Shown piece by piece: positions 36,874 through 63,527 of a stretch of DNA of 64,000 bases. The DNA lies in contig OZ025250.1 in NCBI GenBank assembly GCA_964019135.1, positions 48,825,174-48,889,173 on the forward strand. The letters are read 5' to 3'. The notes under the pieces are model-generated. The model was not told where the DNA came from and ran no database searches. It saw nothing but the letters and a program-made list of their open reading frames with translations. The stretch comes from Arenicola marina. Lineage: Eukaryota; Annelida; Polychaeta; Arenicolidae. The position numbers and the translations under genes are program-made. Position 1 is the first letter of the stretch; each line of letters begins with the position of its first letter.

Positions 36874-37278
36874 ATGACTGATCTGATCAAGCTTAACATA
36901 CTGTCCCTAAATGTTAGGGACATTAATGCACATAGAAAACGAAGAGCCCTCTTCACTTGGTGTGAAGAAAATAACATTGGCATTCTATGTGTTCAAGAAA
37001 CGTTTTTAACAACCAGCAAGGGACATAAGTTTAATTACTTTAACGGCGACACTTACTTCTCTCCTGCAAAGTCTGTAAATTCCTGTGGCGTTGCAATCCT
37101 GATTCGAAAGTCCGTCGATTTCGAATTACATGAGTCACATGATAGAGAGAGTCGGCAGGTTACTGTAAAGATAAATGTTAATGGCTGTCATCTAAATGTC
37201 ATAAACGTGTACGCACCTAACTCAGAGAAAGCCAGGAATGATTTTTATCGAACATGCGAAAAAAATATCAAGCGAAAC
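36874..37278 (+). mobile_element. LINE ORF2, N-terminal half of AP endonuclease domain
   Basis: From ATG at 36874 the frame shows the motif order of LINE apurinic-like endonucleases: SLNVRD (Asn13), CVQETFL (Glu42), GVAILIRKS (about 72-80), NVYAPN (Tyr113), then GDMN (Asp147, Asn149) in the first repeat unit. This domain nicks target DNA to prime reverse transcription. The natural sequence is intact to residue 135, after which 57-bp repeats start at 37279. The frame stays open through the repeats to a TAA at 42760, giving a 1,962-codon ORF of which only the first 135 codons are non-repetitive. I consider it a dead retrotransposon, not a gene for a giant protein. Confidence 0.88.
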
Positions 37279-40200
37279 ATTGATATAGGAACTCATACTA
37301 TATTATGTGGTGATATGAACTGTGGTATGTGTAGCATTGATATAGGAACTCCTACTATATTATGTGGTGATATGAACTGTGGTATGTGTAGCATTGATAT
37401 AGGAACTCCTACTATATTATGTGGTGATATGAACTGTGGTATGTGTAGCATTGATATAGGACCTCCTACTATATTATGTGGTGATATGAACTGTGGTATG
37501 TGTAGCATTGATATAGGAACTCCTACTATATTATGTGGTGATATGAACTGCGGTATGTGTAGCATTGATATAGGAACTCCTACTATATTATGTGGTGATA
37601 TGAACTGTGGTATGTGTAACATTGATATAGGAACTCCTACTATATTATGTGGTGATATGAACTGTGGTATGTGTAACATTGATATAGGAACTCCTACTAT
37701 ATTATGTGGTAATATGAACTGTGGTATGTGTAGCATTGATATAGGAACTCCTACTATATTATGTGGTGATATGAACTGTGGTATGTGTAACATTGATATA
37801 GGAACTCCTACTATATTATGTGGTGATATGAACTGCGGTATGTGTAGCATTGATATAGGAACTCCTACTATATTATGTGGTGATATGAACTGTGGTATGT
37901 GTAGCATTGATATAAGAACTCCTACTATATTATGTGGTGATATGAACTGTGGTATGTGTAACATTGATATAGGATCTCCTACTATATTATGTGGTGATAT
38001 GAACTGTGGTATGTGTAACATTGATATAGGAACTCCTACTGTATTATGTGGTGATATGAACTGTGGTATGTGTAACATTGATATAGGAACTCCTACTATA
38101 TTATGTGGTGATATGAACTGTGGTATGTGTAGCATTGATATAGGAACTCCTACTAGATTATGCGGTGATATGAACTGTGGTATGTGTAACATTGATATAG
38201 GAACTCCTACTATATTATGTAATGATATGAACTGCGATATGTGTACCATTGATATAAGAACTCCTACTATATTATGTGGTGATATGAACTGTGGTATGTG
38301 TAGCATTGATATAGGAAGTCCTACTATATTATGTGGTGATATGAACTGTGGTATGTGTAGCATTGATATAGGAACTTCTACTATATTATGTGGTGATATG
38401 AACTGTGGTATGTGTAGCATTGATATAGGAACTCATACTATATTATGTGGTGATATGAACTGTGGTATGTGTAGCATTGATATAGGAACTTCTACTATAT
38501 TATGTGGTGATATGAACTGGGGTATGTGTAGCATTGATATAGGAACTCCTACTATATTATGTGGTGATATGAACTGTGGTATGTGTAACATTGATATAGG
38601 AACTCCTACTATATTATGTGGTGATATGAACTGGGGTATGTGTAACATTGATAGAGGAACTCCTACTATATTATGTAGTGATATGAACTGTGGTATGTGC
38701 AGCATTGATATAGGAACTCCTACTATATTATGTGGTGATATGAACTGTGGTATGTGTAGCATTGATATAGGAACTCCTACTATATTATGTGGTGATATGA
38801 ACTGTGGTATGTGTAGCATTGATATAGGAACTCCTACTATATTATGTGGTGATATGAACTGTGGTATGTGTAACATTGATATAGGAACTCCTACTATATT
38901 ATGTGGTGATATGAACTGTGGTAAGAGTAGCATTGATATAGGAACTCCTACTATATTATGTGGTGATATGAACTGCGGTATGTGTAACATTGATATAGGA
39001 ACTCCTACTATATTATGCGGTGATATGAACTGTGGTATGTGTAGCATTGATATAGGAACTCCTACTATATTATGTGGTGATATGAACTGTGGTATGTGTA
39101 ACATTGATATAGGAACTCCTACTATATTATGCGGTGATATGAACTGTGGTATGTGTAGCATTGATATAGGAACTCCTACTATATTATGTGGTGATATGAA
39201 CTGTGGTATGTGTTGCATTGATATAGGAACTCCTACTATATTATGTGGTGATATGAACTGCGGTATGTGTAGCATTGATATAGGAACTCCTACTATATTA
39301 TGTGGTGATATGAACTGTGGTATGTGTAACATTGATATAGGAACTCCTACTATATTATGTGGTGATATGAACTGTGGTATGTGTAACATTGATATAGGAA
39401 CTCCTACTATATTATGTGGTAATATGAACTGTGGTATGTGTAGCATTGATATAGGAACTCCTACTATATTATGTGGTGATATGAACTGTGGTATGTGTAA
39501 CATTAATATAGGAACTCCTACTATATTATGTGGTGATATGAACTGCGGTATGTGTAGCATTGATATAGGAACTCCTACTATATTATGTGGTGATATGAAC
39601 TGTGGTATGTGTAGCATTGATATAAGAACTCCTACTATATTATGTGGTGATATGAACTGTGGTATGTGTAACATTGATATAGGAACTCCTACTATATTAT
39701 GTGGTGATATGAACTGTGGTATGTGTAACATTGATATAGGAACTCCTACTATATTATGTGGTGATATGAACTGTGGTATGTGTAACATTGATATAGGAAC
39801 TCCTACTATATTATGTGGTGATATGAACTGTGGTATGTGTAGCATTGATATAGGAACTCCTACTATATTATGCGGTGATATGAACTGTGGTATGTGTAAC
39901 ATTGATATAGGAACTCCTACTATATTATGTAATGATATGAACTGCGATATGTGTACCATTGATATAGGAACTCCTACTATATTATGTGGTGATATGAACT
40001 GTGGTATGTGTAGCATTGATATAGGAAGTCCTACTATATTATGTGGTGATATGAACTGTGGTATGTGTAGCATTGATATAGGAACTTCTACTATATTATG
40101 TGGTGATATGAACTGTGGTATGTGTAGCATTGATATAGGAACTCATACTATATTATGTGGTGATATGAACTGTGGTATGTGTAGCATTGATATAGGAACT

Positions 40201-43200
40201 TCTACTATATTATGTGGTGATATGAACTGGGGTATGTGTAGCATTGATATAGGAACTCCTACTATATTATGTGGTGATATGAACTGTGGTATGTGTAACA
40301 TTGATATAGGAACTCCTACTATATTATGTGGTGATATGAACTGGGGTATGTGTAACATTGATAGAGGAACTCCTACTATATTATGTAGTGATATGAACTG
40401 TGGTATGTGCAGCATTGATATAGGAACTCCTACTATATTATGTGGTGATATGAACTGTGGTATGTGTAGCATTGATATAGGAACTCCTACTATATTATGT
40501 GGTGATATGAACTGTGGTATGTGTAGCATTGATATAGGAACTCCTACTATATTATGTGGTGATATGAACTGTGGTATGTGTAACATTGATATAGGAACTC
40601 CTACTATATTATGTGGTGATATGAACTGTGGTAAGAGTAGCATTGATATAGGAACTCCTACTATATTATGTGGTGATATGAACTGCGGTATGTGTAACAT
40701 TGATATAGGAACTCCTACTATATTATGCGGTGATATGAACTGTGGTATGTGTAGCATTGATATAGGAACTCCTACTATATTATGTGGTGATATGAACTGT
40801 GGTATGTGTAACATTGATATAGGAACTCCTACTATATTATGCGGTGATATGAACTGTGGTATGTGTAGCATTGATATAGGAACTCCTACTATATTATGTG
40901 GTGATATGAACTGTGGTATGTGTTGCATTGATATAGGAACTCCTACTATATTATGTGGTGATATGAACTGCGGTATGTGTAGCATTGATATAGGAACTCC
41001 TACTATATTATGTGGTGATATGAACTGTGGTATGTGTAACATTGATATAGGAACTCCTACTATATTATGTGGTGATATGAACTGTGGTATGTGTAACATT
41101 GATATAGGAACTCCTACTATATTATGTGGTAATATGAACTGTGGTATGTGTAGCATTGATATAGGAACTCCTACTATTTTATGTGGTGATATGAACTGTG
41201 GTATGTGTAACATTAATATAGGAACTCCTACTATATTATGTGGTGATATGAACTGCGGTATGTGTAGCATTGATATAGGAACTCCTACTATATTATGTGG
41301 TGATATGAACTGTGGTATGTGTAGCATTGATATAAGAACTCCTACTATATTATGTGGTGATATGAACTGTGGTATGTGTAACATTGATATAGGAACTCCT
41401 ACTATATTATGTGGTGATATGAACTGTGGTATGTGTAACATTGATATAGGAACTCCTACTATATTATGTGGTGATATGAACTGTGGTATGTGTAACATTG
41501 ATATAGGAACTCCTACTATATTATGTGGTGATATGAACTGTGGTATGTGTAGCATTGATATAGGAACTCCTACTATATTATGCGGTGATATGAACTGTGG
41601 TATGTGTAACATTGATATAGGAACTCCTACTATATTATGTAATGATATGAACTGCGATATGTGTACCATTGATATAGGAACTCCTACTATATTATGTGGT
41701 GATATGAACTGTGGTATGTGTAGCATTGATATAGGAAGTCCTACTATATTATGTGGTGATATGAACTGTGGTATGTGTAGCATTGATATAGGAACTTCTA
41801 CTATATTATGTGGTGATATGAACTGTGGTATGTGTAGCATTGATATAGGAACTCATACTATATTATGTGGTGATATGAACTGTGGTATGTGTAGCATTGA
41901 TATAGGAACTTCTACTATATTATGTGGTGATATGAACTGGGGTATGTGTAGCATTGATATAGGAACTCCTACTATATTATGTGGTGATATGAACTGTGGT
42001 ATGTGTAACATTGATATAGGAACTCCTACTATATTATGTGGTGATATGAACTGGGGTATGTGTAACATTGATAGAGGAACTCCTACTATATTATGTAGTG
42101 ATATGAACTGTGGTATGTGCAGCATTGATATAGGAACTCCTAATATATTATGTGGTGATATGAACTGTGGTATGTGTAGCATTGATATAGGAACTCCTAC
42201 TATATTATGTGGTGATATGAACTGTGGTATGTGTAGCATTGATAAAGGAACTCCTACTATATTATGTGGTGATATGAACTGTGGTATGTGTAACATTGAT
42301 ATAGGAACTCCTACTATATTATGTGGTGATATGAACTGTGGTAAGAGTAGCATTGATATAGGAACTCCTACTATATTATGTGGTGATATGAACTGCGGTA
42401 TGTGTAACATTGATATAGGAACTCCTACTATATTATGCGGTGATATGAACTGTGGTATGTGTAGCATTGATATAGGAACTCCTACTATATTATGTGGTGA
42501 TATGAACTGTGGTATGTGTAACATTGATATAGGAACTCCTACTATATTATGCGGTGATATGAACTGTGGTATGTGTAGCATTGATATAGGAACTCCTACT
42601 ATATTATGTGGTGATATGAACTGTGGTATGTGTTGCATTGATATAGGAACTCCTACTATATTATGTGGTGATATGAACTGTGGTATGTGTAGCATTGATA
42701 TAGGAACTCATACTATATTATGCGGTGATATGAACTGTGGTATGTGTAGCATTGATATATAAACTCCTACTATATTATGTGTTGATATGAACTGTGGTAT
42801 GTGTAACATTGATATAGGAACTCCTACTATATTATGTGGTGATATGAACTGTGGTATGTGTAACATTGATATAGGAACTCCTACTATATTATGCGGTGAT
42901 ATGAACTGTGGTATGTGTAACATTGATATAGGAACTCCTACTATATTATGCGGTGATATGAACTGTGGTATGTGTAGCATTGATATAGGAACTCCTACTA
43001 TATTATGTGGTGATATGAACTGTGGTATGTGTTGCATTGATATAGGAACTCCTACTATATTATGTGGTGATATGAACTGCGGTATGTGTAGCATTGATAT
43101 AGGAACTCCTAATATATTATGTGGTGATATGAACTGTGGTATGTGTAACATTGATATAGGAACTCCTACTATATTATGTGGTGATATGAACTGTGGTATG

Positions 43201-46200
43201 TGTAACATTGATATAGGAACTCCTACTATATTATGTGGTAATATGAACTGTGGTATGTGTAGCATTGATATAGGAACTCCTACTATATTATGTGGTGATA
43301 TGAACTGTGGTATGTGTAACATTAATATAGGAACTCCTACTATATTATGTGGTGATATGAACTGCGGTATGTGTAGCATTGATATAGGAACTCCTACTAT
43401 ATTATGTGGTGATATGAACTGTGGTATGTGTAGCATTGATATAAGAACTCCTACTATATTATGTGGTGATATGAACTGTGGTATGTGTAACATTGATATA
43501 GGAACTCCTACTATATTATGTGGTGATATGAACTGTGGTATGTGTAACATTGATATAGGAACTCCTACTATATTATGTGGTGATATGAACTGTGGTATGT
43601 GTAGCATTGATATAGGAACTCCTACTATATTATGTGGTGATATGAACTGTGGTATGTGTAGCATTGATATAGGAACTTCTACTATATTATGTGGTGATAT
43701 GAACTGTGGTATGTGTAGCATTGATATAGGAACTCATACTATATTATGTGGTGATATGAACTGTGGTATGTGTAGCATTGATATAGGAACTTCTACTATA
43801 TTATGTGGTGAAATGAACTGGGGTATGTGTAGCATTGATATAGGAACTCCTACTATATTATGTGGTGATATGAACTGTGGTATGTGTAACATTGATATAG
43901 GAACTCCTACTATATTATGTGGTCATATGAACTGGGGTATGTGTAACATTGATAGAGGAACTCCTACTATATTATGTAGTGATATGAACTGTGGTATGTG
44001 CAGCATTGATATAGGAACTCCTACTATATTATGTGGTGATATGAACTGTGGTATGTGTAGCATTGATATAGGAACTCCTACTATATTATGTGGTGATATG
44101 AACTGTGGTATGTGTAGCATTGATATAGGAACTCCTACTATATTATGTGGTGATATGAACTGTGGTATGTGTAACATTGATATAGGAACTCCTACTATAT
44201 TATGTGGTGATATGAACTGTGGTAAGAGTAGCATTGATATAGGAACTCCTACTATATTATGTGGTGATATGAACTGCGGTATGTGTAACATTGATATAGG
44301 AACTCCTACTATATTATGCGGTGATATGAACTGTGGTATGTGTAGCATTGATATAGGAACTCATACTATATTATGTGGTGATATGAACTGTGGTATGTGT
44401 AACATTGATATAGGAACTCCTACTATATTATGTGGTGATATGAACTGTGGTATGTGTAACATTGATATAGGAACTCCTACTATATTATGTGGTGATATGA
44501 ACTGTGGTATGTGTAACATTGATATAGGAACTCCTACTATATTATGCGGTGATATGAACTGTGGTATGTGTAGCATTGATATAGGAACTCCTACTATATT
44601 ATGCGGTGATATGAACTGTGGTATGTGTAACATTGATATAGGAACTCCTACTATATTATGTAATGATATGAACTGCGATATGTGTACCATTGATATAGGA
44701 ACTCCTACTATATTATGTGGTGATATGAACTGTGGTATGTGTAGCATTGATATAGGAAGTCCTACTATATTATGTGGTGATATGAACTGTGGTATGTGTA
44801 GCATTGATATAGGAACTTCTACTATATTATGTGGTGATATGAACTGTGGTATGTGTAGCATTGATATAGGAACTCATACTATATTATGTGGTGATATGAA
44901 CTGTGGTATGTGTAGCATTGATATAGGAACTTCTACTATATTATGTGGTGATATGAACTGGGGTATGTGTAGCATTGATATAGGAACTCCTACTATATTA
45001 TGTGGTGATATGAACTGTGGTATGTGTAACATTGATATAGGAACTCCTACTATTATTATGTGGTGATATGAACTGGGCTATGTGTAACATTGATAGAGGA
45101 ACTCCTACTATATTATGTAGTGATATGAACTGTGGTATGTGCAGCATTGATATAGGAACTCCTACTATATTATGTGGTGATATGAACTGTGGTATGTGTA
45201 GCATTGATATAGGAACTCCTACTATATTATGTGGTGATATGAACTGTGGTATGTGTAGCATTGATATAGGAACTCCCACTATATTATGTGGTGATATGAA
45301 CTGTGGTATGTGTAACATTGATATAGGAACTCCTACTATATTATGTGGTGATATGAACTGTGGTAAGAGTAGCATTGATATAGGAACTCCTACTATATTA
45401 TGTGGTGATATGAACTGCGGTATGTGTAACATTGATATAGGAACTCCTACTATATTATGCGGTGATATGAACTGTGGTATGTGTAGCATTGATATAGGAA
45501 GTCCTACTATATTATGTGGTGATATGAACTGTGGTATGTGTAACATTGATATAGGAACTCCTACTATATTATGCGGTGATATGAACTGTGGTATGTGTAG
45601 CATTGATATAGGAACTCCTACTATATTATGTGGTGATATGAACTGTGGTATGTGTTGCATTGATATAGGAACTCCTACTATATTATGTGGTGATATGAAC
45701 TGTGGTATGTGTAGCATTGATATAGGAAGTCCTACTATATTATGTGGTGATATGAACTGTGGTATGTGTAGCATTGATATAGGAACTTCTACTATATTAT
45801 GTGGTGATATGAACTGTGGTATGTGTAGCATTGATATAGGAACTCATACTATATTATGTGGTGATATGAACTGTGGTATGTGTAGCATTGATATAGGAAC
45901 TTCTACTATATTATGTGGTGATATGAACTGGGGTATGTGTAGCATTGATATAGGAACTCCTACTATATTATGTGGTGATATGAACTGTGGTATGTGTAAC
46001 ATTGATATAGGAACTCCTACTATTATTATGTGGTGATATGAACTGGAGTATGTGTAACATTGATAGAGGAACTCCTACTATATTATGTAGTGATATGAAC
46101 TGTGGTATGTGCAGCATTGATATAGGAACTCCTACTATATTATGTGGTGATATGAACTGTGGTATGTGTAGCATTGATATAGGAACTCCTACTATATTAT

Positions 46201-49200
46201 GTGGTGATATGAACTGTGGTATGTGTAGCATTGATATAGGAACTCCCACTATATTATGTGGTGATATGAACTGTGGTATGTGTAACATTGATATAGGAAC
46301 TCCTACTATATTATGTGGTGATATGAACTGTGGTAAGAGTAGCATTGATATAGGAACTCCTACTATATTATGTGGTGATATGAACTGCGGTATGTGTAAC
46401 ATTGATATAGGAACTCCTACTATATTATGCGGTGATATGAACTGTGGTATGTGTAGCATTGATATAGGAAGTCCTACTATATTATGTGGTGATATGAACT
46501 GTGGTATGTGTAACATTGATATAGGAACTCCTACTATATTATGCGGTGATATGAACTGTGGTATGTGTAGCATTGATATAGGAACTCCTACTATATTATG
46601 TGGTGATATGAACTGTGGTATGTGTTGCATTGATATAGGAACTCCTACTATATTATGTGGTGATATGAACTGTGGTATGTGTAGCATTGATATAGGAACT
46701 CATACTATATTATGCGGTGATATGAACTGTGGTATGTGTAGCATTGATATAGAAACTCCTACTATATTATGTGTTGATATGAACTGTGGTATGTGTAACA
46801 TTGATATAGGAACTCCTACTATATTATGTGGTGATATGAACTGTGGTATGTGTAACATTGATATAGGAACTCCTACTATATTATGCGGTGATATGAACTG
46901 TGGTATGTGTAACATTGATATAGGAACTCCTACTATATTATGCGGTGATATGAACTGTGGTATGTGTAGCATTGATATAGGAACTTCTGCTATATTATGT
47001 GGTGATATGAACTGTGGTATGTGTAGCATTGATATAGGAACTCATACTATATTATGTGGTGATATGAACTGTGGTATGTGTAGCATTGATATAGGAACTT
47101 CTACTATATTATGTGGTGATATGAACTGGGGTATGTGTAGCATTGATATAGGAACTCCTACTATATTATGTGGTGATATGAACTGTGGTATGTGTAACAT
47201 TGATATAGGAACTCCTACTATTATTATGTGGTGATATGAACTGGGGTATGTGTAACATTGATAGAGGAACTCCTACTATATTATGTAGTGATATGAACTG
47301 TGGTATGTGCAGCATTGATATAGGAACTCCTACTATATTATGTGGTGATGTGAACTGTGGTATGTGTAGCATTGATATAGGAACTCCTACTATATTATGT
47401 GGTGATATGAACTGTGGTATGTGTAGCATTGATATAGGAACTCCCACTATATTATGTGGTGATATGAACTGTGGTATGTGTAACATTGATATAGGAACTC
47501 CTACTATATTATGTGGTGATATGAACTGTGGTAAGAGTAGCATTGATATAGGAACTCCTACTATATTATGTGGTGATATGAACTGCGGTATGTGTAACAT
47601 TGATATAGGAACTCCTACTATATTATGCGGTGATATGAACTGTGGTATGTGTAGCATTGATATAGGAAGTCCTACTATATTATGTGGTGATATGAACTGT
47701 GGTATGTGTAACATTGATATAGGAACTCCTACTATATTATGCGGTGATATGAACTGTGGTATGTGTAGCATTGATATAGGAACTCCTACTATATTATGTG
47801 GTGATATGAACTGTGGTATGTGTTGCATTGATATAGGAACTCCTACTATATTATGTGGTGATATGAACTGTGGTATGTGTAGCATTGATATAGGAACTCA
47901 TACTATATTATGCGGTGATATGAACTGTGGTATGTGTAGCATTGATATAGAAACTCCTACTATATTATGTGTTGATATGAACTGTGGTATGTGTAACATT
48001 GATATAGGAACTCCTACTATATTATGTGGTGATATGAACTGTGGTATGTGTAACATTGATATAGGAACTCCTACTATATTATGCGGTGATATGAACTGTG
48101 GTATGTGTAACATTGATATAGGAACTCCTACTATATTATGCGGTGATATGAACTGTGGTATGTGTAGCATTGATATAGGAACTCCTACTATATTATGTGG
48201 TGATATGAACTGTGGTATGTGTTGCATTGATATAGGAACTCCTACTATATTATGTGGTGATATGAACTGCGGTATGTGTAGCATTGATATAGGAACTCCT
48301 ACTATATTATGTGGTGATATGAACTGTGGTATGTGTAACATTGATATAGGAACTCCTACTATATTATGTGGTGATATGAACTGTGGTATGTGTAACATTG
48401 ATATAGGAACTCCTACTATATTATGTGGTAATATGAACTGTGGTATGTGTAGCATTGATATAGGAACTCCTACTATATTATGTGGTGATATGAACTGTGG
48501 TATGTGTAACATTAATATAGGAACTCCTACTATATTATGTGGTGATATGAACTGCGGTATGTGTAGCATTGATATAGGAACTCCTACTATATTATGTGGT
48601 GATATGAACTGTGGTATGTGTAACATTGATATAGGAACTCCTACTATATTATGTGGTGATATGAACTGTGGTATGTGTAACATTGATATAGGAACTCCTA
48701 CTATATTATGTGGTGATATGAACTGTGGTATGTGTAACATTGATATAGGAACTCCTACTATATTATGTGGTGATATGAACTGTGGTATGTGTAACATTGA
48801 TATAGGAACTCCTACTATATTATGTGGTGATATGAACTGTGGTATGTGTAACATTGATATAGGAACTCCTACTATATTATGTGGTGATATGAACTGCGGT
48901 ATGTGTAGCATTGATATAGGAACTCCTACTATATTATGTGGTGATATGAACTGTGGTATGTGTAACATTGATATAGGAACTCCTACTATATTATGTGGTG
49001 ATATGAACTGTGGTATGTGTAGCATTGATATAGGAAGTCTTACTATATTATGTGGTGATATGAACTGTGGTATGTGTTGCATTGATATAGGAACTCCTAC
49101 TATATTATGTGGTGATATGAACTGTGGTATGTGTAGCATTGATATAGGAACTCATACTATATTATGCGGTGATATGAACTGTGGTATGTGTAGCATTGAT

Positions 49201-52200
49201 ATAGAAATTCCTACTATATTATGTGTTGATATGAACTGTGGTATGTGTAACATTGATATAGGAACTCCTACTATATTATGTGGTGATATGAACTGTGGTA
49301 TGTGTAACATTGATATAGGAACTCCTACTATATTATGCGGTGATATGAACTGTGGTATGTGTAACATTGATATAGGAACTCCTACTATATTATGCGGTGA
49401 TATGAACTGTGGTATGTGTAGCATTGATATAGGAACTCCTACTATATTATGTGGTGATATGAACTGTGGTATGTGTTGCATTGATATAGGAACTCCTACT
49501 ATATTATGTGGTGATATGAACTGCGGTATGTGTAGCATTGATATAGGAACTCCTACTATATTATGTGGTGATATGAACTGTGGTATGTGTAACATTGATA
49601 TAGGAACTCCTACTATATTATGTGGTGATATGAACTGTGGTATGTGTAACATTGATATAGGAACTCCTACTATATTATGTGGTAATATGAACTGTGGTAT
49701 GTGTAGCATTGATATAGGAACTCCTACTATATTATGTGGTGATATGAACTGTGGTATGTGTAACATTAATATAGGAACTCCTACTATATTATGTGGTGAT
49801 ATGAACTGCGGTATGTGTAGCATTGATATAGGAACTCCTACTATATTATGTGGTGATATGAACTGTGGTATGTGTAACATTGATATAGGAACTCCTACTA
49901 TATTATGTGGTGATATGAACTGTGGTATGTGTAACATTGATATAGGAACTCCTACTATATTATGTGGTGATATGAACTGCGGTATGTGTAACATTGATAT
50001 AGGAACTCCTACTATATTATGTGGTGATATGAACTGTGGTATGTGTAGCATTGATATAGGAAGTCTTACTATATTATGTGGTGATATGAACTGTGGTATG
50101 TGTTGCATTGATATAGGAACTCCTACTATATTATGTGGTGATATGAACTGTGGTATGTGTAGCATTGATATAGGAACTCATACTATATTATGCGGTGATA
50201 TGAACTGTGGTATGTGTAGCATTGATATAGAAACTCCTACTATATTATGTGTTGATATGAACTGTGGTATGTGTAACCTTGATATAGGAACTCCTACTAT
50301 ATTATGTGGTGATATGAACTGTGGTATGTGTAACATTGATATAGGAACTCCTACTATATTATGCGGTGATATGAACTGTGGTATGTGTAACATTGATATA
50401 GGAACTCCTACTATATTATGCGGTGATATGAACTGTGGTATGTGTAGCATTGATATAGGAACTCCTACTATATTATGTGGTGATATGAACTGTGGTATGT
50501 GTTGCATTGATATAGGAACTCCTACTATATTATGTGGTGATATGAACTGCGGTATGTGTAGCATTGATATAGGAACTCCTACTATATTATGTGGTGATAT
50601 GAACTGTGGTATGTGTAACATTGATATAGGAACTCCTACTATATTATGTGGTGATATGAACTGTGGTATGTGTAACATTGATATAGGAACTCCTACTATA
50701 TTATGTGGTAATATGAACTGTGGTATGTGTAGCATTGATATAGGAACTCCTACTATATTATGTGGTGATATGAACTGTGGTATGTGTAACATTAATATAG
50801 GAACTCCTACTATATTATGTGGTGATATGAACTGCGGTATGTGTAGCATTGATATAGGAACTCCTACTATATTATGTGGTGATATGAACTGTGGTATGTG
50901 TAACATTGATATAGGAACTCCTACTATATTATGTGGTGATATGAACTGTGGTATGTGTAACATTGATATAGGAACTCCTACTATATTATGTGGTGATATG
51001 AACTGTGGTATGTGTAACATTGATATAGGAACTCCTACTATATTATGTGGTGATATGAACTGTGGTATGTGTAACATTGATATAGGAACTCCTACTATAT
51101 TATGTGGTGATATGAACTGTGGTATGTGTAACATTGATATAGGAACTCCTACTATATTACGTGGTGATATGAACTGCGGTATGTGTAGCATTGATATAGG
51201 AACTCCTACTATATTATGTGGTGATATGAACTGTGGTATGTGTAACATTGATATAGGAACTCCTACTATATTATGTGGTGATATGAACTGTGGTATGTGT
51301 AACATTGATATAGGAACTCCTACTATATTATGTGGTGATATGAACTGTGGTATGTGTAACATTGATATAGGAACTCCTACTATATTATGTGGTGATATGA
51401 ACTGTGGTATGTGTAACATTGATATAGGAACTCCTACTATATTATGTGGTGATATGAACTGTGGTATGTGTAACATTGATATAGGAACTCCTACTATATT
51501 ATGTGGTGATATGAACTGTGGTATGTGTAGCATTGATATAGGAACTCCTACTATATTATGCGGTGATATGAACGGTGGTATGTGTAACATTGATATAGGA
51601 ACTCCTACTATATTATGTAATGATATGAACTGCGATATGTGTACCATTGATATAGGAACTCCTACTATATTATGTGGTGATATGAACTGTGGTATGTGTA
51701 GCATTGATATAGGAAGTCCTACTATATTATGTGGTGATATGAACTGTGGTATGTGTAGCATTGATATAGGAACTTCTACTATATTATGTGGTGATATGAA
51801 CTGTGGTATGTGTAGCATTGATATAGGAACTCATACTATATTATGTGGTGATATGAACTGCGGTATGTGTAGCATTGATATAGGAACTTCTACTATATTA
51901 TGTGGTGATATGAACTGGGGTATGTGTAGCATTGATATAGGAACTCCTACTATATTATGTGGTGATATGAACTGTGGTATGTGTAACATTGATATAGGAA
52001 CTCCTACTATATTATGTGGTGATATGAACTGGGGTATGTGTAACATTGATAGAGGAACTCCTACTATATTATGTAGTGATATGAACTGTGGTATGTGCAG
52101 CATTGATATAGGAACTCCTACTATATTATGTGGTGATATGAACTGTGGTATGTGTAGCATTGATATAGGAACTCCTACTATATTATTTGGTGATATGAAC

Positions 52201-52957
52201 TGTGGTATGTGTAGCATTGATATAGGAACTCCTACTATATTATGTGGTGATATGAACTGTGGTATGTGTAACATTGATATAGGAACTCCTACTATATTAT
52301 GTGGTGATATGAACTGTGGTAAGAGTAGCATTGATATAGGAACTCCTACTATATTATGTGGTGATATGAACTGCGGTATGTGTAACATTGATATAGGAAC
52401 TCCTACTATATTATGCGGTGATATGAACTGTGGTATGTGTAGCATTGATATAGGAACTCCTACTATATTATGTGGTGATATGAACTGTGGTATGTGTAAC
52501 ATTGATATAGGAACTCCTACTAATATTATGCGGTGATATGAACTGTGGTATGTGTAGCATTGATATAGGAACTCCTACTATATTATGTGGTGATATGAAC
52601 TGTGGTATGTGTTGCATTGATATAGGAACTCCTACTATATTATGTGGTGATATGAACTGTGGTATGTGTAGCATTGATATAGGAACTCATACTATATTAT
52701 GCGGTGATATGAACTGTGGTATGTGTAGCATTGATATAGAAACTCCTACTATATTATGTGTTGATATGAACTGTGGTATGTGTAACATTGATATAGGAAC
52801 TCCTACTATATTATGTGGTGATATGATCTGTGGTATGTGTAGCATTGATATAGGAACTCCTACTATATTATGTGGTGATATGAACTGTGGTATGTGTAAC
52901 ATTGATATAGGAACTCCTACTATATTATGTGGTGATATGAACTGTGGTATGTGTAGC
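37279..52957 (+). repeat. 57-bp array inside the LINE endonuclease, 275 units
   Basis: Each unit encodes IDIGTPTILCGDMNCGMC plus S or N (19 residues), including the GDMN catalytic motif. The length, 15,679 bases, equals 275 x 57 + 4. The four extra bases are single insertions near 45053, 46023 and 47221 (ACTATTATTATG) and 52520 (ACTAATATTATG), each of which shifts frame. Variation is confined to a few sites: AGC/AAC at the unit junction, TGT/TGC, CCT/TCT/CAT, and rare markers such as GGTAAGAGT (GKSS) or GATAGAGGA (IDRG). A GGA-to-TAA change near 42760 stops the first long frame. The minus strand is also open over long stretches, so openness alone is not evidence for translation. Confidence 0.98.
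37540..42700. repeat. 1,710-bp higher-order repeat (30 x 57 bp)
   Basis: Marker units recur at exactly 1,710 bases. GGTAATATGAAC occurs at about 37709, 39419 and 41129; AATGATATGAACTGCGAT at 38221, 39931 and 41641; GGTAAGAGT at 38921 and 40631. About three periods are visible. Further right the same markers recur at other multiples of 57 (for example 53 units later), so the order breaks down into rearranged blocks. Confidence 0.95.
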
Positions 52958-53192
52958 GTGGATAGAGAGAACGGCGATTTGGATGGGTCCCGCGTATTCC
53001 TCCTACGCTTAGTAACGTGGCTGGGTGTGTTTGCCGCATGGAGGAAATTGTATGGGGATAACAGAGTATATAGGTACTATGATAGAACGAGCAAATTGGG
53101 CAGCCGTATCGACTATATCTTGCTATCGCCGATACTATGTAATATCTTAACGAATTGCAAGATCACAGTTACAACGTGGCCCAGGCTATTGG
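52958..53192 (+). mobile_element. LINE ORF2, C-terminal half of endonuclease domain
   Basis: The non-repetitive sequence resumes as VDRENGDLDGSRVFLL, then WLGVFAAWRKLYGD and LGSRIDYILLSPIL. This matches the end of a LINE endonuclease (the variable loop, the W-R strand and the SRIDYI motif). The S-D-H motif expected after TTWPR is missing: the sequence passes directly to LLEVK. A frame change follows near 53195. Relative to the N-terminal half this part is one base out of frame because of the four insertions in the array, so the endonuclease is inactive twice over. Confidence 0.85.
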
Positions 53193-53945: not shown

Positions 53946-54083
53946 TGGCCCTTTATGTTTGAAACCCTGACCAAATTCGGTTTTGGAAAAGACTTTATTA
54001 ACTGGATACAAATCTTATATCATAACCCAACTGGAACTCTGAAAGTAAATGGATGGCTCACTGAACAATTAGATGTTAATTAA
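53946..54083 (+). mobile_element. LINE RT internal fragment
   Basis: Reads WPFMFETLTKFGFGKDF, then INWIQILYHNPTGTLKVNG and a stop at 54081-54083. This is the RT segment just after the F-D-x-A-F-D box (L-x-x-F-G-F-G, W-I, L-Y, V-N-G), normally well over 100 residues downstream of the 53940 sequence. The junction at 53942-53946 is therefore an internal deletion that removed the central RT motifs. The next base run is the short 57-bp array. Confidence 0.8.
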
Positions 54084-54463
54084 CTATGTTATGTGGTGAT
54101 ATGAACTGTGGTATGTGTAGCATTGATATAGGAACTCCTACTATATTATGTGGTGATATGAACTGTGGTATGTGTAGCATTGATATAGGAACTCCTACTA
54201 TATTATGTGGTGATATGAACTGTGGTATGTGTAGCATTGATATATGAACTCCTACTATGTTATGTGGTGATATGAACTGTGGTATGTGTAGCATTGATAC
54301 AGGAACTCATACTATATTATGTGGTGATATGAACTGTGGTATGTGTAGCATTGATATAGGAACTCCTACTATATTATGTGGTGATATGAACTGTGGTATG
54401 TGTAGCATTGATATATGAACTCCTACTATATTATGTGGTGATATGAACTGTGGTATGTGTAGC
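54083..54463 (+). repeat. Second, short 57-bp array (6.7 units)
   Basis: 381 bases of the same 57-bp unit, starting within a unit (ACTATGTTATGTGGTGAT) directly after the RT fragment and ending at AGC before GTGGATAGAG. At least two units carry GGA-to-TGA changes (near 54244 and 54414), so this array is closed in the LINE frame. Confidence 0.96.
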
Positions 54464-55470
54464 GTGGATAGAGAGAACGGCGATTTGGATGGGTCCCGCG
54501 TATTCCTCCTACGCTTAGTAACGTGGCTGGGTGTGTTTGCCGCATGGAGGAAATTGTACGGGGATAAAAGAGTTTATACGTACTATGATAGAACGAGCAA
54601 ATTTGGCAGCCGTATCGACTATATCTTTCTATCGCCGATACTATGTAATATCTTAACGAATTGCAAGGTCACAGTTACAACGTGGCCCAGGCTATTGGAA
54701 GTTAAACACGTCACTTCTGCCGGATCCCGAATATATAGCTGGTGTATTAGGTGTAATAGAGGAGACCACGGTGATATATAAAGGAATTATCAACGCGCGC
54801 AGCCTGTGGATTTGTGTAAATTACGCATTGAAGAATTATCTATTGATTACTCTCTCAGGCTTAGGAATAGAGGAGCCAAGAAAATGAATAATCTGTCAAT
54901 AGAGATAACTAAGTGCAAGGGAAGCATTGCACGGAAGCCATGGCGATGATCGAAGTGTCCTTTACACATTAAAGAAAAACCTTGAAAACGATATGGAAAA
55001 GAGATATAACATGGAAGCAAAGGGAGCGCAGATTAGAGCGAGAGCCAAGTACTTACAACACGGAGAGAGAAATACAAAATACTTTTTAGGATTAAAGAAA
55101 CGGAGGCAATGTAATAATACGATATATAGGCGTGGGCAATATAGTTACAGTTACAGGTGCCATCCCTGGGGCGGTAACAGACTACTTACTATAAAGTCCT
55201 GTTCGCGTCAAACAATAGGAGTACTTGTGAGGCTTTGGCATATCTAAATCGTATTAAATATAAGCTCCCGAAAACTAATACGAGTAGTTGCGAGGGAAAG
55301 ATAACACTAAATGAGAGCCAAAGCCCTGTAAATACCATGACAAAAAATGAGAGCCCTACCCTGGACGGTCTTCCAATCGAGTTTTATGCAACTTTCTGGG
55401 AAGATATCAAAGATTTACCTATAGGATCGTTTAATGAAGCTTGCGTAGACGGCATGTTGTCACATTATTT
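54464..55470 (+). mobile_element. LINE ORF2 second partial copy (EN C-half, linker, RT start)
   Basis: Near-duplicate of 52958-53940: VDRENGDLDGSRVFLL, FGSRIDYIFLSPIL, the same missing S-D-H and the same frame change after LLEVK. The linker follows with YNMEAKGAQIRARAKY and HGERNTKYFLGLKKR, then SPTLDGLPIEFYATFW, and it ends at TTGTCA at about 55462. It keeps a 21-bp segment lost from the first copy but lacks a short stretch in the IYRR region and has an extra G near 54919. It breaks at the same TTGTCA as the upstream copy and then enters unrelated sequence (CATTATTTCGTAG). Confidence 0.85.
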
Positions 55471-56210: not shown

Positions 56211-56981
56211 GACGAAAGTAATGAACTTTCGCTGGAAAGTGACAGTGACGACGACCGGGTCCGGGAAGAGGCCCGTGCTCGGGTCAACTCCCCGGATCTG
56301 CGTCCTTACAGTGACGACGGCCAGGTCCGGGAGGAGGTCCGTGCTCGGGTCAACCCCCCGGATCTGCGCCCGGACAGTGACGACGGCCAGGTCCGGGAGG
56401 AGGTCCGTGCTCGGGTCAACTCCCCGGATCTGCGCCCGGACAGTGACGACGGCCAGGTCCGGGAGGAGGTCCGTGCTCGGGTCAACTCCCCGGATCTGCG
56501 CCCGGACAGTGACGACGGCCAGGTCCGGGAGGAGGCCGGTGCTCGGGTCAACTCCCCGGATCTGCGCCCGGACAGTGACGACGGCCAGGTCCGGGAGGAG
56601 GTCCGTGCTCGGGTCAACTCCCCCGATCTGCGCCCGGAAAGTGACGACGACCAGGTCCGGGAGGAGGTCCGTGCTCGGGTCAACTCCCCGGATCTGCGCC
56701 CGGACAGTGACGACGGCCAGGTCCGGGAGGAGGTCCGTGCTCGGGTCAACTCCCCGGATCTACGCCCAGACAGTGACGACGGCCAGGTCCGGGAGGAGGC
56801 CCGTGCTCGGGTTAACTCCCCGGATCTGCGCCCGGGCAGTGACGACGGCCAGGTCCTGGAGGAGGCCCGTGCTCGGGTCAACTCCCTGGATCTACGCCCA
56901 GACAGTGACGACGGCCAGGTCCGGCAGGAGGCCCGTGCTCGGGTCAACTCCCCGGATCTGCCCCCGGACGACGACGATTGA
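56211..56981 (+). CDS. Exon-like ORF with eleven 22-residue charged repeats
   Basis: The sequence after the acceptor-like CAG at 56208-56210 opens with DESNELSLESDSDDDR. Eleven copies of a 22-residue unit follow, VREEVRARVNSPDLRPDSDD plus GQ, ending in PPDDDD and TGA at 56979-56981. The protein would be highly charged (E/R half, then S/D half) and probably disordered, with no enzymatic motif. Substitutions between units are mostly conservative and no indel breaks the 66-bp period, fitting either a real exon or a young array. The other forward frame and the minus strand are also open, which weakens the case. No splice donor is seen, so this would be a terminal exon. Upstream exons and any link to the protease gene 0.7 kb downstream are unproven. 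Confidence 0.4.
   Translation, partial: DESNELSLESDSDDDRVREEARARVNSPDLRPYSDDGQVREEVRARVNPPDLRPDSDDGQVREEVRARVNSPDLRPDSDDGQVREEVRARVNSPDLRPDSDDGQVREEAGARVNSPDLRPDSDDGQVREEVRARVNSPDLRPESDDDQVREEVRARVNSPDLRPDSDDGQVREEVRARVNSPDLRPDSDDGQVREEARARVNSPDLRPGSDDGQVLEEARARVNSLDLRPDSDDGQVRQEARARVNSPDLPPDDDD
56259..56978. repeat. 66-bp tandem repeat, 11 units
   Basis: Unit starts GTCCGGGAGGAGGTCCGTGC and ends AGTGACGACGGCCAG; the last unit is truncated. GC-rich and CpG-rich. The period is a multiple of three. Confidence 0.95.
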
Positions 56982-57692
56982 GGCCATGCATGCCGTCACA
57001 AACGGTTACAATGAGACACCTATATGATTTTGGCCGCGAAGAAGCTTTATTATAACCAGGTTTAATTCATGGTGTATAACATCAGCTTGGAGGATGTAAC
57101 TGAGGCATGCCGTATTGCATTGTAGGTCATCGATGCCCGGTGAGTTATCATTTTGACATTCTACGTCTTGAAACCAAGTTGTTGATGCCCATATAATATA
57201 GCGTTCGAGCTCTCGACCAGATATGTAATCCACTATGCTATGACATTATTATTAAGGTCAATCATAGGACTCACACAGAAGCTAGCTAGTATGATCTTCC
57301 TTTATAATTTTCATAAATACAACAGTGTTAGCGTACATATTTTAACATATGTGTCAATATTTTTCACAAATACGACTACATCCCGTGTTGGGTTGCCGCG
57401 ATGCAATTTAACTGGAGTCACCAGGAGAAACTTGCAAAATTAAGAGAAATAAGCTACATGTTGGCCAAAAGTTATAACGTTGGTAGCGGCGTTAAATGTG
57501 TGGTCTACACGCGTTGTAGCTAAAAGAATGGTAGTTTTATACGTATTGGTGCGCATTTGTTGTTCATGCTCAGCTTCTTTACTTAATATTCTTTTTCATT
57601 GTACGTTAAATGATTCATCTCAAGGCTAGCTGCAATCAAAGAATAGTGATCAATGTATTAGTCCATGCATCAGTAATTGTTTTCTGGCGCAG
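56982..57692. other. Non-coding stretch before the protease exons
   Basis: AT-rich DNA with no recognisable coding exon. It ends in the acceptor-like TTTTCTGGCGCAG at 57680-57692. Earlier exons of the protease may lie here or further upstream but I could not identify them. Confidence 0.45.
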
Positions 57693-57758
57693 GTCATCTC
57701 ACACGGAAGACATTACGTCTGGGTCGTCAACAGGCATGGCCAGCACTGGGTCTTTGTC
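57693..57758 (+). CDS. C48 protease exon with catalytic His
   Basis: After GCGCAG (acceptor, ending 57692) the frame reads VISHGRHYVWVVNRHGQHWVFV. HW at 57744-57749 matches the catalytic histidine and following tryptophan of C48 proteases. The proposed donor GTCAGT starts at 57759; it is close to but not the commonest donor sequence. The exon is 66 bases, phase 0 at both ends, compatible with the next exon. Confidence 0.55.
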
Positions 57759-60700
57759 GTCAGTCTTGTTGTGTCCACTAATTATTAAGTCATTACCTTC
57801 CTCTTCATTTTGGGCTGGTTCAAACGAAGGCAGAGATGTCACTGATGCAGTTCGTATATTATTCGTTAGTATTATTACACCCAAACATATTTTATCCACC
57901 TTTTTGTCCATAATGCGTGTGAGGTCTCATTATATTCATATACTTGTATAATAGTTACGTCCTAGGTCTTAACATCTATAATTTCCACATATTAAGTGTC
58001 AACAGTTAGACATCTCAAATCTACTTTCAGGCCATTGATATTGTGAATAAAAGCCTGACTGTCATGGACCCGCTGGGCGGTAAACTCCCGCAATGTCGGG
58101 AGCTGTTGGCAATGTTGACTTACTTGCCCTTTGGTGGCACTTATTGTGATGTTTTCTTAAGCGGCAATAACAAAATAACTTCAGAACCCATATTACTACC
58201 TAAGGCATTGGCCTTTCATAATATTCTACATTCTAAGATTCATGCCCCTTATATTATTGTATTTTGGCAAATACATTATTTTGTAGGAAGTTCCTGACAC
58301 TTCACAAGGTCTATCGGCGAGGGTTACGGAAACTGGATATTCCAGCCCATGCCAGGCAGCACGATGGCCGCTCGTGTGGCCTGTACAGCATGGCGGTTAT
58401 TCCAGCCCATGCCAAGCAGCACGATGGCCGCTCGTGTGGCCTGTACAGCATGGCGGTTATTCCAGCCCATGCCAGGCAGCTCGATGGCCGCTCGTGTGGC
58501 CTGTACAGCATGGCGGTTATTCCAGCCCATGCCAGGCAGCACGATGGCCGCTCGTGTGGCCTGTACAGCATGGCGCTTATTCCAGCCCATGCCAGGCAGC
58601 ACGATGGCCGCTCGTGTGGCCTGTACAGCATGGCGGTTATTCCAGCCCATGCCAGGCAGCACGATGGCCGCTCGTGTGGCCTGTACAGCATGGCGGTTAT
58701 TCCAGCCCATGCCAGGCAGCACGATGGCCGCTCGTGTGGCCTGTACAGCATGGCGGTTATTCCAGCCCATGCCAGGCAGCTCGATGGCCGCTCGTGTGGC
58801 CTGTACAGCATGGCGGTTATTCCAGCCCATGCCAGGCAGCACGATGGCCGCTCGTGTGGCCTGTACAGCATGACGGTTATTCCAGCCCATGCCAGGCAGC
58901 ACGATGGCCGCTCGTGTGGCCTGTACAGCATGGCGGTTATTCCAGCCCATGCCAGGCAGCACGATGGCCGCTCGTGTTGCCTGTACAGCATGGCGGTTAT
59001 TCCAGCCCATGCCAGGCAGCACGATGGCCGCTCGTGTGGCCTGTACAGCATGGCGGTTATTCCAGCCCATGCCAGGCAGCACGATGGCCGCTCGTGTGGC
59101 CTGTACAGCATGGCGGTTATTCCAGCCCATGCCAGGCAGCACGATGGCCGCTCATGTGGCCTGTACAGCATGGCGGTTATTCCAGCCCATGCCAGGCAGC
59201 ACGATGGCCGCTCGTGTGGCCTGTACAGCATGACGGTTATTCCAGCCCATGCCAGGCAGCACGATGGCCGCTCGTGTGGCCTGTACAGCATGGCGGTTAT
59301 TCCAGCCCATGCCAGGCAGCACCGCTCGTGTGGCCTGTACAGCATGGCGGTTATTCCAGCCCATGCCAGGCAGCACGATGGCCGCTCGTGTGGCCTGTAC
59401 AGCATGGCGGTTATTCCAGCCCATGCCAGGCAGCACGATGGCCGCTCGTGTGGCCTGTACAGCATGGCGGTTATTCCAGCCCATGCCAGGCAGCACGATG
59501 GCCGCTCGTGTGGCCTGTACAGCATGGCGGTTATTCCAGCCCATGCCAGGCAGCACGATGGCCGCTCGTGTGGCCTGTACAACATGGCGGTTATTCCAGC
59601 CCATGCCAGGCAGCACGATGGCCGCTCGTGTGGCCTGTACAGCATGGCGGTTATTCCAGCCCATGCCAGGCAGCACGATGGCCGCTCGTGTGGCCTGTAC
59701 AGCATGGCGGTTATTCCAGCCCATGCCAGGCAGCACGATGGCCGCTCGTGTGGCCTGTACAGCATGGCGGTTATTCCAGCCCATGCCAGGCAGCACGATG
59801 GCCGCTCGTGTGGCCTGTACAGCATGGCGGTTATTCCAGCCCATGCCAGGCAGCTCGATGGCCGCTCGTGTGGCCTGTACAGCATGGCGGTTATTCCAGC
59901 CCATGCCAGGCAGCACGATGGCCGCTCGTGTGGCCTGTACAGCATGACGGTTATTCCAGCCCATGCCAGGCAGCACGATGGCCGCTCGTGTGGCCTGTAC
60001 AGCATGGCGGTTATTCCAGCCCATGCCAGGCAGCACGATGGCCGCTCGTGTTGCCTGTACAGCATGGCGGTTATTCCAGCCCATGCCAGGCAGCACGATG
60101 GCCGCTCGTGTGGCCTGTACAGCATGGCGGTTATTCCAGCCCAGGCCAGGCAGCTCGATGGCCGCTCGTGTGGCCTGTACAGCATGACGGTTATTCCAGC
60201 CCATGCCAGGCAGCACGATGGCCACTCGTGTGGCCTGTACAGCATGGCGGTTATTCCAGCCCATGCCAGGCAGCACGATGGCCGCTCGTGTGGCCTGTAC
60301 AGCATGGCGGTTATTCCAGCCCATGCCAGGCAGCACGATGGCCGCTCATGTGGCCTGTACAGCATGGCGGTTATTCCAGCCCATGCCAGGCAGCACGATG
60401 GCCGCTCGTGTGGCCTGTACAGCATGGCGGTTATTCCAGCCCATGCCAGGCAGCACGATGGCCGCTCGTGTGGCCTGTACAGCATGACGGTTATTCCAGC
60501 CCATGCCAGGCAGCACGATGGCCGCTCGTGTTGCCTGTACAGCATGGCGGTTATTCCAGCCCATGCCAGGCAGCACGATGGCCGCTCGTGTTGCCTGTAC
60601 AGCATGGCGGTTATTCCAGCCCATGCCAGGCAGCACGATGGCCGCTCGTGTGGCCTGTACAGCATGGCGGTTATTCCAGCCCATGCCAGGCAGCACGATG

Positions 60701-63527
60701 GCCGCTCATGTGGCCTGTACAGCATGACGGTTATTCCAGCCCATGCCAGGCAGCACGATGGCCGCTCGTGTGGCCTGTACAGCATGGCGGTTATTCCAGC
60801 CCATGCCAGGCAGCACGATGGCCGCTCGTGTGGCCTGTACAGCATGGCGGTTATTCCAGCCCATGCCAGGCAGCACGATGGCCGCTCGTGTGGCCTGTAC
60901 AGCATGGCGGTTATTCCAGCCCATGCCAGGCAGCACGATGGCCGCTCGTGTGGCCTGTACAGCATGGCGGTTATTCCAGCCCATGCCAGGCAGCACGATG
61001 GCCGCTCGTGTGGCCTGTACAGCATGGCGGTTATTCCAGCCCATGCCAGGCAGCACGATGGCCGCTCGTGTGGCCTGTACAGCATGGTGGTTATTCCAGC
61101 CCATGCCAGGCAGCACGATGGCCGCTCGTGTGGCTTGGACAGCATGGCGGTTATTCCAGCCCATGCCAGGCAGCACGATGGCCGCTCGTGTGGCTTGTAC
61201 AGCATGGCGGTTATTCCAGCCCATGCCAGGCAGCACGATGGCCGCTCGTGTGGCCTGTACAGCATGGCGGTTATTCCAGACCATGCCAGGCAGCACGATG
61301 GCCGCTCGTGTGGCCTGTACAGCATGGCGGTTATTCCAGCCCATGCCAGGCAGCACGATGGCCGCTCGTGTGGCCTGTACAGCATGGCGGTTATTCCAGC
61401 CCATGCCAGGCAGCACGATGGCCGCTCGTGTGGCCTGTACAGCATGGCGGTTATTCCAGCCCATGCCAGGCAGCACGATGGTCGCTCGTGTGGCCTGTAC
61501 AGCATGGCGGTTATTCCAGCCCATGCCAGGCAGCACGATGGCCGCTCGTGTGGCCTGTACAGCATGACCGTTATTCCAGCCCATGCCAGGCAGCACGATG
61601 GCCGCTCGTGTGGCCTGTACAGCATGGCGGTTATTCCAGCCCATGCCAGGCAGCACGATGGCCGCTCGTGTGGCCTGTACAGCATGGCGGTTATTCCAGC
61701 CCATGCCAGGCAGCGCGATGGCCGCTCGTGTGGCCTGTACAGCATGACGGTTATTCCAGCCCATGCCAGGCAGCTCGATGGCCGCTCGTGTGGCCTGTGC
61801 AGCATGGCGGTTATTCCAGCCCATGCCAGGCAGCACGATGGCCGCTCGTGTGGCCTGTACAGCATGACGGTTATTCCAGCCCATGCCAGGCAGCACGATG
61901 GCCGCTCGTGTGGCCTGTACAGCATGGCGGTTATTCCAGCCCATGCCAGGCAGCACGATGGCCGCTCGTGTGGCCTGTACAGCATGACGGTTATTCCAGC
62001 CCATGCCAGGCAGCACGATGGCCGCTCGTGTGGCCTGTACAGCATGACGGTTATTCCAGCCCATGCCAGGCAGCACGATGGCCGCTCGTGTGGCCTGTAC
62101 AGCATGGCGGTTATTCCAGCCCATGCCAGGCAGCACGATGGCCGCTCGTGTGGCCTGTACAGCATGGCGGTTATTCCAGCCCATGCCAGGCAGCACGATG
62201 GCCGCTCGTGTGGCCTGTACAGCATGGCGGTTATTCCAGCCCATGCCAGGCAGCACGATGGCCGCTCATGTGGCCTGTACAGCATGACGGTTATTCCAGC
62301 CCATGCCAGGCAGCACGATGGCCGCTCGTGTGGCCTGTACAGCATGGCGGTTATTCCAGCCCATGCCAGGCAGCACGATGGCCGCTCGTGTGGCCTGTAC
62401 AGCATGGCGGTTATTCCAGCCCATGCCCGGCAGCACGATGGCCGCTCGTGTGGCCTGTACAGCATGGCGGTTATTCCAGCCCATGCCAGGCAGCACGATG
62501 GCCGCTCGTGTGGCCTGTACAGCATGGCGGTTATTCCAGCCCATGCCAGGCAGCACGATGGCCGCTCGTGTGGCCTGTACAGCATGGCGGTTATTCCAGC
62601 CCATGCCAGGCAGCACGATGGCCGCTCGTGTGGCCTGTACAGCATGGCGGTTATTCCAGCCCATGCCAGGCAGCACGATGGCCACTCGTGTGGCCTGTAC
62701 AGCATGACGGTTATTCCAGCCCATGCCAGGCAGCACGATGGCCGCTCGTGTGGCCTGTACAGCATGGCGGTTATTCCAGCCCATGCCAGGCAGCACGATG
62801 GCCGCTCGTGTGGCCTGTACAGCATGACGGTTATTCCAGCCCATGCCAGGCAGCACGATGGCCGCTCGTGTGGCCTGTACAGCATGGCGGTTATTCCAGC
62901 CCATGCCAGGCAGCACGATGGCCGCTCGTGTTGCCTGTACAGCATGGCGGTTATTCCAGCCCATGCCAGGCAGCACGATGGCCGCTCGTGTGGCTTGTAC
63001 AGCATGGCGGTTATTCCAGCCCATGCCAGGCAGCACGATGGCCGCTCGTGTGGCCTGTACAGCATGGCGGTTATTCCAGCCCATGCCAGGCAGCTCGATG
63101 GCCGCTCGTGTGGCCTGTACAGCATGGCGGTTATTCCAGCCCATGCCAGGCAGCTCGATGGCCGCTCGTGTGGCCTGTACAGCATGACGGTTCCTATCAT
63201 TGTCAGATATTCATCAGTCATTAGTACTTGTGCATGGCACTTTAAAACTAACTATGGATATTAAATATGGAAGACAATTTGTTCGACTCACTTCGATCAT
63301 GTCTTTCAGTTGCTTTATTACATAGAAGCTTTGTAACACGCCAGCGTATGTGGGTTGACATCTATCTAGACGCAAGCGTTTGTTGCTTAATATGTTGAAA
63401 TATACAATATATACATGTCCTCCAGTTCGCCGAGGCCTATATGTCCAACACGAGCGTGACGTCACTGCATGGCACCGAGATGGAACAGTTCGAAATAGCA
63501 GTGGTCCACGATGTCATTGCCAATTGA
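57693..63527 (+). CDS. C48/Ulp1-like cysteine protease gene with amplified catalytic exon
   Basis: Four exon-like segments in order carry the landmarks of Ulp1/SENP (C48) peptidases, which cleave ubiquitin-like modifiers; the family is also frequent in transposon-encoded and domesticated proteins. The segments carry His-Trp (57744), Asp (about 58067), Gln-x5-Cys-Gly (first copy about 58355-58380) and a C-terminal helix ending in TGA at 63525. Joining the first two exons puts His and Asp 17 residues apart, as in yeast Ulp1 (His514/Asp531). Gln and Cys are 6 apart, as in Gln574/Cys580. If the second exon ends near 58133, Asp to Cys is about 52 residues (49 in Ulp1). The cysteine segment is repeated 81 times. 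The splice phase between the second and third segments is off by one base and the N-terminus is not found. The gene is probably inactive or needs an alternative junction. Confidence 0.65.
57759..58030 (+). other. Short intron of the C48-like gene
   Basis: Bounded by GTCAGT and CTACTTTCAG. In-frame continuation stops at a TAA at 57786-57788, and removing the intron restores the expected His-to-Asp spacing. Confidence 0.5.
58031..58133 (+). CDS. C48 protease exon with catalytic Asp
   Basis: Preceded by CTACTTTCAG, it reads AIDIVNKSLTVMDPLGG, then KLPQCRELLAMLTYLPFG. The I-D-x-x-N-K-S-L-T-V-M-D-P-L pattern matches the strand that carries the catalytic Asp (usually D-S-L). A donor candidate GTGGCA at 58134 would end the exon in phase 1; GTAAAC at 58079 is an alternative with the same phase. 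Neither matches the phase 2 needed by the next exon at 58287, leaving a one-base discrepancy. Confidence 0.5.
58287..58338 (+). CDS. C48 protease exon, unique 5' part before the array
   Basis: Follows TTATTTTGTAG and reads KFLTLHKVYRRGLRKLD, continuing IPAHARQHDGRSCGLYSM in the first repeat unit. The intervening 58134-58286 would be intron. This stretch occupies the place of the helix between the Asp and Gln/Cys motifs. Confidence 0.5.
58339..63192 (+). repeat. 60-bp array of the protease catalytic-Cys motif, 81 units
   Basis: Each unit encodes IPAHARQHDGRSCGLYSMAV, containing Gln, the D-G pair and the catalytic Cys-Gly. The length of 4,854 bases equals 81 x 60 minus 6. One unit near 59315-59325 lacks six bases and so loses D-G. 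Recurrent variants are CAC/CTC (H/L), GCG/ACG (A/T before V), GGC/TGC after the Cys codon (CG to CC) and CGC/CAC (R/H). The frame stays open for 1,666 codons from 58264 to 63264. A second forward frame and the minus strand are open for over 1,600 codons each, so the array is best read as a homogenised minisatellite within an exon. Confidence 0.97.
63193..63425 (+). other. Probable last intron of the C48-like gene
   Basis: After the final unit the sequence becomes unique and AT-rich and ends in TGTCCTCCAG. The donor is not clear; GTTCCT at 63190 or GTCAGA near 63202 are weak candidates. Confidence 0.35.
63426..63527 (+). CDS. C48 protease last exon
   Basis: After the acceptor-like CTCCAG it reads FAEAYMSNTSVTSLHGTE, then MEQFEIAVVHDVIAN and TGA at 63525-63527. 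An aromatic-A-E-x-Y helix just after the C-G-L-Y-S-M segment, then a terminal helix, is what C48 domains show downstream of the catalytic cysteine. It lies outside the array, showing that the array is internal to the domain. Confidence 0.5.
   Translation, partial: FAEAYMSNTSVTSLHGTEMEQFEIAVVHDVIAN

Follow-up and report, generated by a model that had tools for sequence, protein, structure and literature searches.

The 81 tandem copies of a protease active-site segment that fill one long open frame in this part of the Arenicola marina genome are, very probably, a minisatellite derived from an exon of an animal gene for a C48 (Ulp1/SENP-like) protease, in a duplicate copy that is decaying. We refer to the whole 64,000 bp stretch analysed (C3 48825174-48889173) as the window and to the gene copy within it as W. 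Since other copies of the gene hold the segment once, the array looks like runaway DNA repetition and not like a protein with 81 active sites. The first-pass annotation, made from the letters alone, had offered both readings: a protein with 81 active-site loops, or a repeat that had disrupted a gene. The first was not borne out, as the sister arrays of copies A and B have lost the frame, changes among units appear neutral and the gene has suffered damage that does not depend on the array. The second was, given single-unit paralogues, the damage to the gene and the frame loss in the sister arrays.

Tandem Repeats Finder, run on the window, reports positions 58338-63192 as a repeat of period 60 with 81.0 copies and 97% matches. 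Splitting the array (58339..63192, forward strand) at ATTCCAG yields 80 units of 60 bp and one of 54 bp, 81 in all, of which 42 match the consensus exactly. These units lie in an open frame of 1675 codons (58237-63264); repeat finding, cutting and frame thus agree with the 81 in-frame units first claimed. In this frame the consensus unit translates to IPAHARQHDGRSCGLYSMAV, the Gln/Cys segment of an Ulp1-type (C48) protease. Both the Cys codon and the Gln are present in 81/81 units of W, and the Gly following the Cys is altered in five. The consensus contains no stop in any of its three forward frames and the period is divisible by three. Therefore, the openness of the array is largely expected, and the open frame alone carries little weight. 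Near-identical head-to-tail units within the range of 10–100 bp, numbering 71, 81 and 79 across three gene copies, are those of a minisatellite. Searches of the window with Rfam (gathering threshold) and ARAGORN gave no matches. An exact search with a 40-base core of the unit returned 0 matches in viral_contigs and 0 in genome_contigs, from which records of the same genome were possibly excluded. The titles and abstract openings of the open-licence papers searched contained no report of a repeated protease active-site segment.

The array sits within a recognisable protease gene on the forward strand. Upstream lie a predicted catalytic His exon (VISHGRHYVWVVNRHGQHWVFV, 57693..57758) and a predicted catalytic Asp exon (AIDIVNKSLTVMDPLGGK..., 58031..58119), both placed by alignment to SENP1 and to the paralogues. 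The exon with the Gln/Cys segment (KFLTLHKVYRRGLRKLDIPAHARQHDGRSCGLYSMA, 58287..58395) aligns in 8/8 copies found and takes in unit 1 up to the first donor. Judged from the single-unit paralogues, a predicted intron (58396..63425) would start at this unit-1 donor and enclose almost the whole array. The last C48-domain exon found (FAEAYMSN...DVIAN, 63426..63527), located by paralogue comparison, has a TGA at its end. Conservation in the paralogues upholds the protease-like exons on both sides of the array, as first annotated. Joined with one unit, the W exons match Pfam Peptidase_C48 (PF02902) at 43 bits (E 6.1e-11; cut-off 20.7); lack of such a match had been named beforehand as evidence against the assignment. 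Scored separately, the parts are marginal, with 20.5 bits for the query as far as the Cys segment, 23.2 for the Cys exon with the last exon and 14.8 for two units. The ORF spanning the whole array reaches 233.5 bits against C48, yet no single stretch of it exceeds the cut-off. The six joined exons of paralogue F score 31.3 bits against PF02902. In W, GQHW, VMDPLGG and RQHDGRSC align with SENP1 in the order His-Asp-(Gln)-Cys (E 0.033, weak on its own), and the Gln and Cys are spaced by six as first noted; we take the aligned residues to have the corresponding catalytic roles. The joined protein used for the SENP1, Pfam and genome comparisons was 2 residues short at one junction relative to the paralogue-supported junction. 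W is therefore like peptidase family C48 (Ulp1/SENP) in its profile match and its aligned His, Asp, Gln and Cys, and unlike it in being damaged and in carrying the Cys segment 81-fold.

We searched the 867-Mb genome with the joined protein, scoring 150 of 269 candidates and obtaining at least 245 matches. Among the matches listed there are at least eight copies of the gene. Five are clustered on C3, namely A (48.711 Mb), W, B (49.027 Mb), C (49.147 Mb) and D (49.187 Mb); E lies elsewhere on C3 (17.755 Mb), whilst F and H are on C244 in mutually opposite orientation, with a 98.7% match over 9.7 kb. In 12 genomic stretches then compared, the 60-bp array is found in three of these eight (A with 71 units, W with 81 and B with 79), and C, D, E, F and H hold a single unit. 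Thus, the relatives with one unit that had been suggested as a check were found within the same genome. Units of 58 bp account for 4/71 in A and 3/79 in B. Window position 63707 is a sharp breakpoint, beyond which sequence common to A, B and D is absent in W. The 19-kb contig C472 also has a C48 match, with in-frame TAG and TAA codons; our guess is that it may be a contaminant with a ciliate-like code. A COX1 match on C762 contains 13 TGA, 5 AGA and no AGG codons, which would fit an invertebrate mitochondrion.

The unit maps onto the boundary between the Cys exon and the intron that follows. In D, the exon ends ...AGCATGGCG and is succeeded by GTTCCTATCATTG. The consensus of the array is identical to this single copy. 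Most array units end GCGGTT (the rest mostly ACGGTT) and restart at ATTCCAG; CCTATCATTG comes only past the last array unit, and in C and D it adjoins the single unit directly. Taken together, the unit ends and the context in the single-unit paralogues identify the repeated segment as the final 57 bases of the exon together with the three bases that open the intron, GTT. The end of the Cys exon is further supported by the C48 match and by the register of the last exon in the copies having one; this exon is missing in C, and E diverges within it. All copies have a weak Cys-exon donor (single-unit ones read GTTCCT or GTTCTT), and because of this we only infer its use. GTT is retained in 80/81 units of W; from the sequence, a transcript could therefore leave the array within an intron. 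Five paralogues have this exon boundary once and three have it 71-81 times, so that the place where the minisatellite was born, and its ends, can be read exactly. The copies form a clean natural series for the birth of a minisatellite at an exon boundary.

Were the array coding, it would specify a protein of ~1,700 residues whose 81 active-site loops might serve as a substrate decoy, a scaffold or a repeat protein. This is highly unlikely. The frame of W does run from unit 1 for 1641 codons and 81 loops with no frameshift and no stop, with all Cys and Gln residues kept. However, both sister arrays are out of frame: reading from unit 1 meets a stop after 52 codons (one loop) in A and after 336 codons (two loops) in B. 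Moreover, the unit changes are those expected without constraint in the coding frame. We counted changes in the 223 of 231 units that are 60 bp long, leaving out eight of other lengths, and took as expectation the same base changes placed at random. Pooled distinct changes comprised 7 synonymous, 23 nonsynonymous and 0 stop, compared with 7.5, 21.8 and 0.7 expected. Counted array by array, the changes were 5, 13 and 0 against 4.1, 13.6 and 0.3 in W, 1, 10 and 0 against 2.7, 8.1 and 0.2 in A and 2, 12 and 0 against 3.6, 9.8 and 0.6 in B. The other two frames were also near expectation (8, 21 and 1 against 7.7, 20.7 and 1.6; 10, 17 and 3 against 7.9, 18.8 and 3.2); the constraint among units that the first-pass annotation had proposed to look for is thus not seen in any of the three frames. 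Because only 0.3 stops were expected in W, its stop-free array is no evidence of constraint. W also has one His and one Asp for its 81 Cys, and the gene around the array has lost splice sites and suffered a frameshifting deletion. Nor does structure prediction support a coding array. AlphaFold2 modelled the start of the Cys exon with ten units as an all-strand, solenoid-like structure without helix (pLDDT 73.4, 39.2, 37.5, 32.1 and 28.8), but an overlapping stretch read in another forward frame was also all-strand (75.5, 68.0, 59.4, 54.8 and 45.1). With the best control at 75.5 against 73.4, the two are equally confident; the model is therefore uninformative about a real fold, and we rejected the solenoid. 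Confident but unrealistic solenoids for repeat proteins are described in a 2025 paper (PMC11795689). There remains a very slight chance that W, whose frame is the only one of the three left intact, is expressed as a protein with tens of C48 loops, or as isoforms that vary in loop number through the identical donors.

It is also unlikely, although less so, that the gene still works, with the array excised inside a 5-kb intron between unit 1 and the last exon, and no harm done by the many identical donors. The unit does carry the exon donor, its GTT intact in nearly every unit of W, and joining unit 1 to the last exon reproduces the register of the single-unit copies that have this exon. However, the position of the Asp-exon donor, GT in the five single-unit copies, reads TT in A, W and B, and identical competing donors would yield mixed products. 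Further upstream the damage continues. In F, GT donors and AG acceptors flank all six C48 exons, with a weak donor at the Cys exon. In A, W, B, C and D, a frameshifting 28-bp deletion has reduced the 42-bp exon VIDAYLHVAVSMHP (14/42 bp remain in W, at 57126..57139, forward strand), and the next exon, which matches exon KYDYIPSS... of F (57368..57439, forward strand), has no acceptor AG. The donor GT of the latter is absent in W alone. In A, W, B and D the last exon closes with a TGA, and B has a further one inside it. With an exon deletion and lost acceptor and donors, W is no longer an intact domain-encoding gene. Over 252 bases, and on few changes, dN/dS was 0.55-0.76 between the C3 cluster (A, W, C, D) and F, 0.31 for E-F, 0.30 for W-D and 0.46 for A-D. 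These sequence comparisons suggest weak to moderate past constraint, on few changes; as the ratios of the counted pairs lie below 1, function may have been lost only recently in some copies. An unrelated satellite inserted into the gene has next to no probability: long arrays are frequent in this genome, but the unit is identical to the end of this gene's exon as it stands in D. Single units in C, E, F and H depart from the consensus at just 2-3 of 57 bases, though over the flanking stretch E, F and H are 13-14% divergent from W. Long arrays are also difficult to assemble, but an assembly artefact is extremely unlikely where three loci differ in unit count and each has variants and flanks of its own. 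The sequence is real and striking; the mechanism is ordinary.

Under our preferred reading, an exon-derived minisatellite, the 60-bp segment comprising the end of the Cys exon and three intron bases would have been tandemly duplicated in an ancestor of A, W and B. The array would then have grown, presumably by unequal exchange or slippage, to its 71 (A), 81 (W) and 79 (B) units. Any transcript would probably either be degraded or be spliced from a unit donor to the last exon with the array left as intron, and no repeated-loop protein would be made. The three arrays have unit variants in common, those of the last unit among them, which suggests an array older than the separation of A, W and B. 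In a tree of the flanking non-array DNA, A and B pair first, C joins them next, and W and D follow; E, F and H are distant. Differences in the Asp exon number 0/86 for A-W, 0/86 for A-B, 3/86 for C against A and 5/86 for D against A. Since array-free C is nearer to A and B than W is, a single clean gain requires loss or conversion in C. C may therefore be a copy that lost its array, or one with a converted segment; this counts against one simple gain. The single unit of C ends ACG, like the last array unit; so does that of E.

Coding VNTRs and minisatellites include the mucins and similar genes. As in these, the unit described here has a length divisible by three, lies within an exon and varies in copy number between gene copies. 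Unlike these, it is a catalytic segment that extends across a splice donor, the frame is lost in two of three arrays (W keeps it) and the unit changes are as without constraint. More generally, where the period of a repeat is divisible by three, a long open frame across it says little in favour of a protein. In another system, a tandem duplication across an intron-exon boundary created a new spliced intron (PMC4974935). There too the duplicated segment spans the boundary and carries splice signals; in that case a new intron arose, whereas here 71-81 copies stand at the start of an existing intron that may be spliced. Tandem repeats can also arise from part of a transposable element, according to a review (PMC6947457). 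The likeness is that an internal segment becomes a tandem array, and the difference is that the source here is an exon of a protease gene.

This last process directly fits a neighbouring array of 57-bp units in a LINE endonuclease domain, which in the window occupies 37278-52972 (275 units) and 54083-54478 (7 units). Its unit contains the GDxN motif, IDIGTPTILCGDMNCGMCS (ILCGDMNCGMCS). The array recurs with 62 units in A, 60 in B and 35 in C, and 47 units lie upstream of D. In 3.3-kb pieces of six LINE relatives at other genomic sites, Tandem Repeats Finder detected no tandem array, and the segment is present once in the 4 relatives read in the correct strand. A third coding segment has expanded in an acidic exon upstream of the C48 exons (56211..56981, forward strand), of which only the acceptor end (ATTGCAG) is placed and whose frame ends in TGA. 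Here a 66-bp in-frame segment (DSDDGQVREEVRARVNSPDLRP) forms 11 units at 56241-56969, compared with 28 in A, 36 in B, 14 in C, 19 in D and, by eye, about 1.6 in E. One duplicated block therefore holds three coding segments turned into arrays: a C48 active-site loop, a LINE endonuclease GDxN segment and an acidic exon. Each of the periods 57, 60 and 66 is divisible by three, a 1 in 27 chance were periods uniform; this was noticed post hoc and we set it aside as too weak to use. The window also contains minisatellites of 14 bp (780 copies) at 6281-17158 and of 34/64 bp (about 494/247 copies) at 20006-36087. The main arrays together make up 50,067 of its 64,000 bases (78%). In eight 5-kb genome pieces picked by round position, Tandem Repeats Finder arrays cover 16,947/40,000 bases (42%). 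As far as this small sample tells, minisatellite growth is thus common in the genome; two of the eight pieces consist almost entirely of array (periods 45 and 52 bp), and another two contain none.
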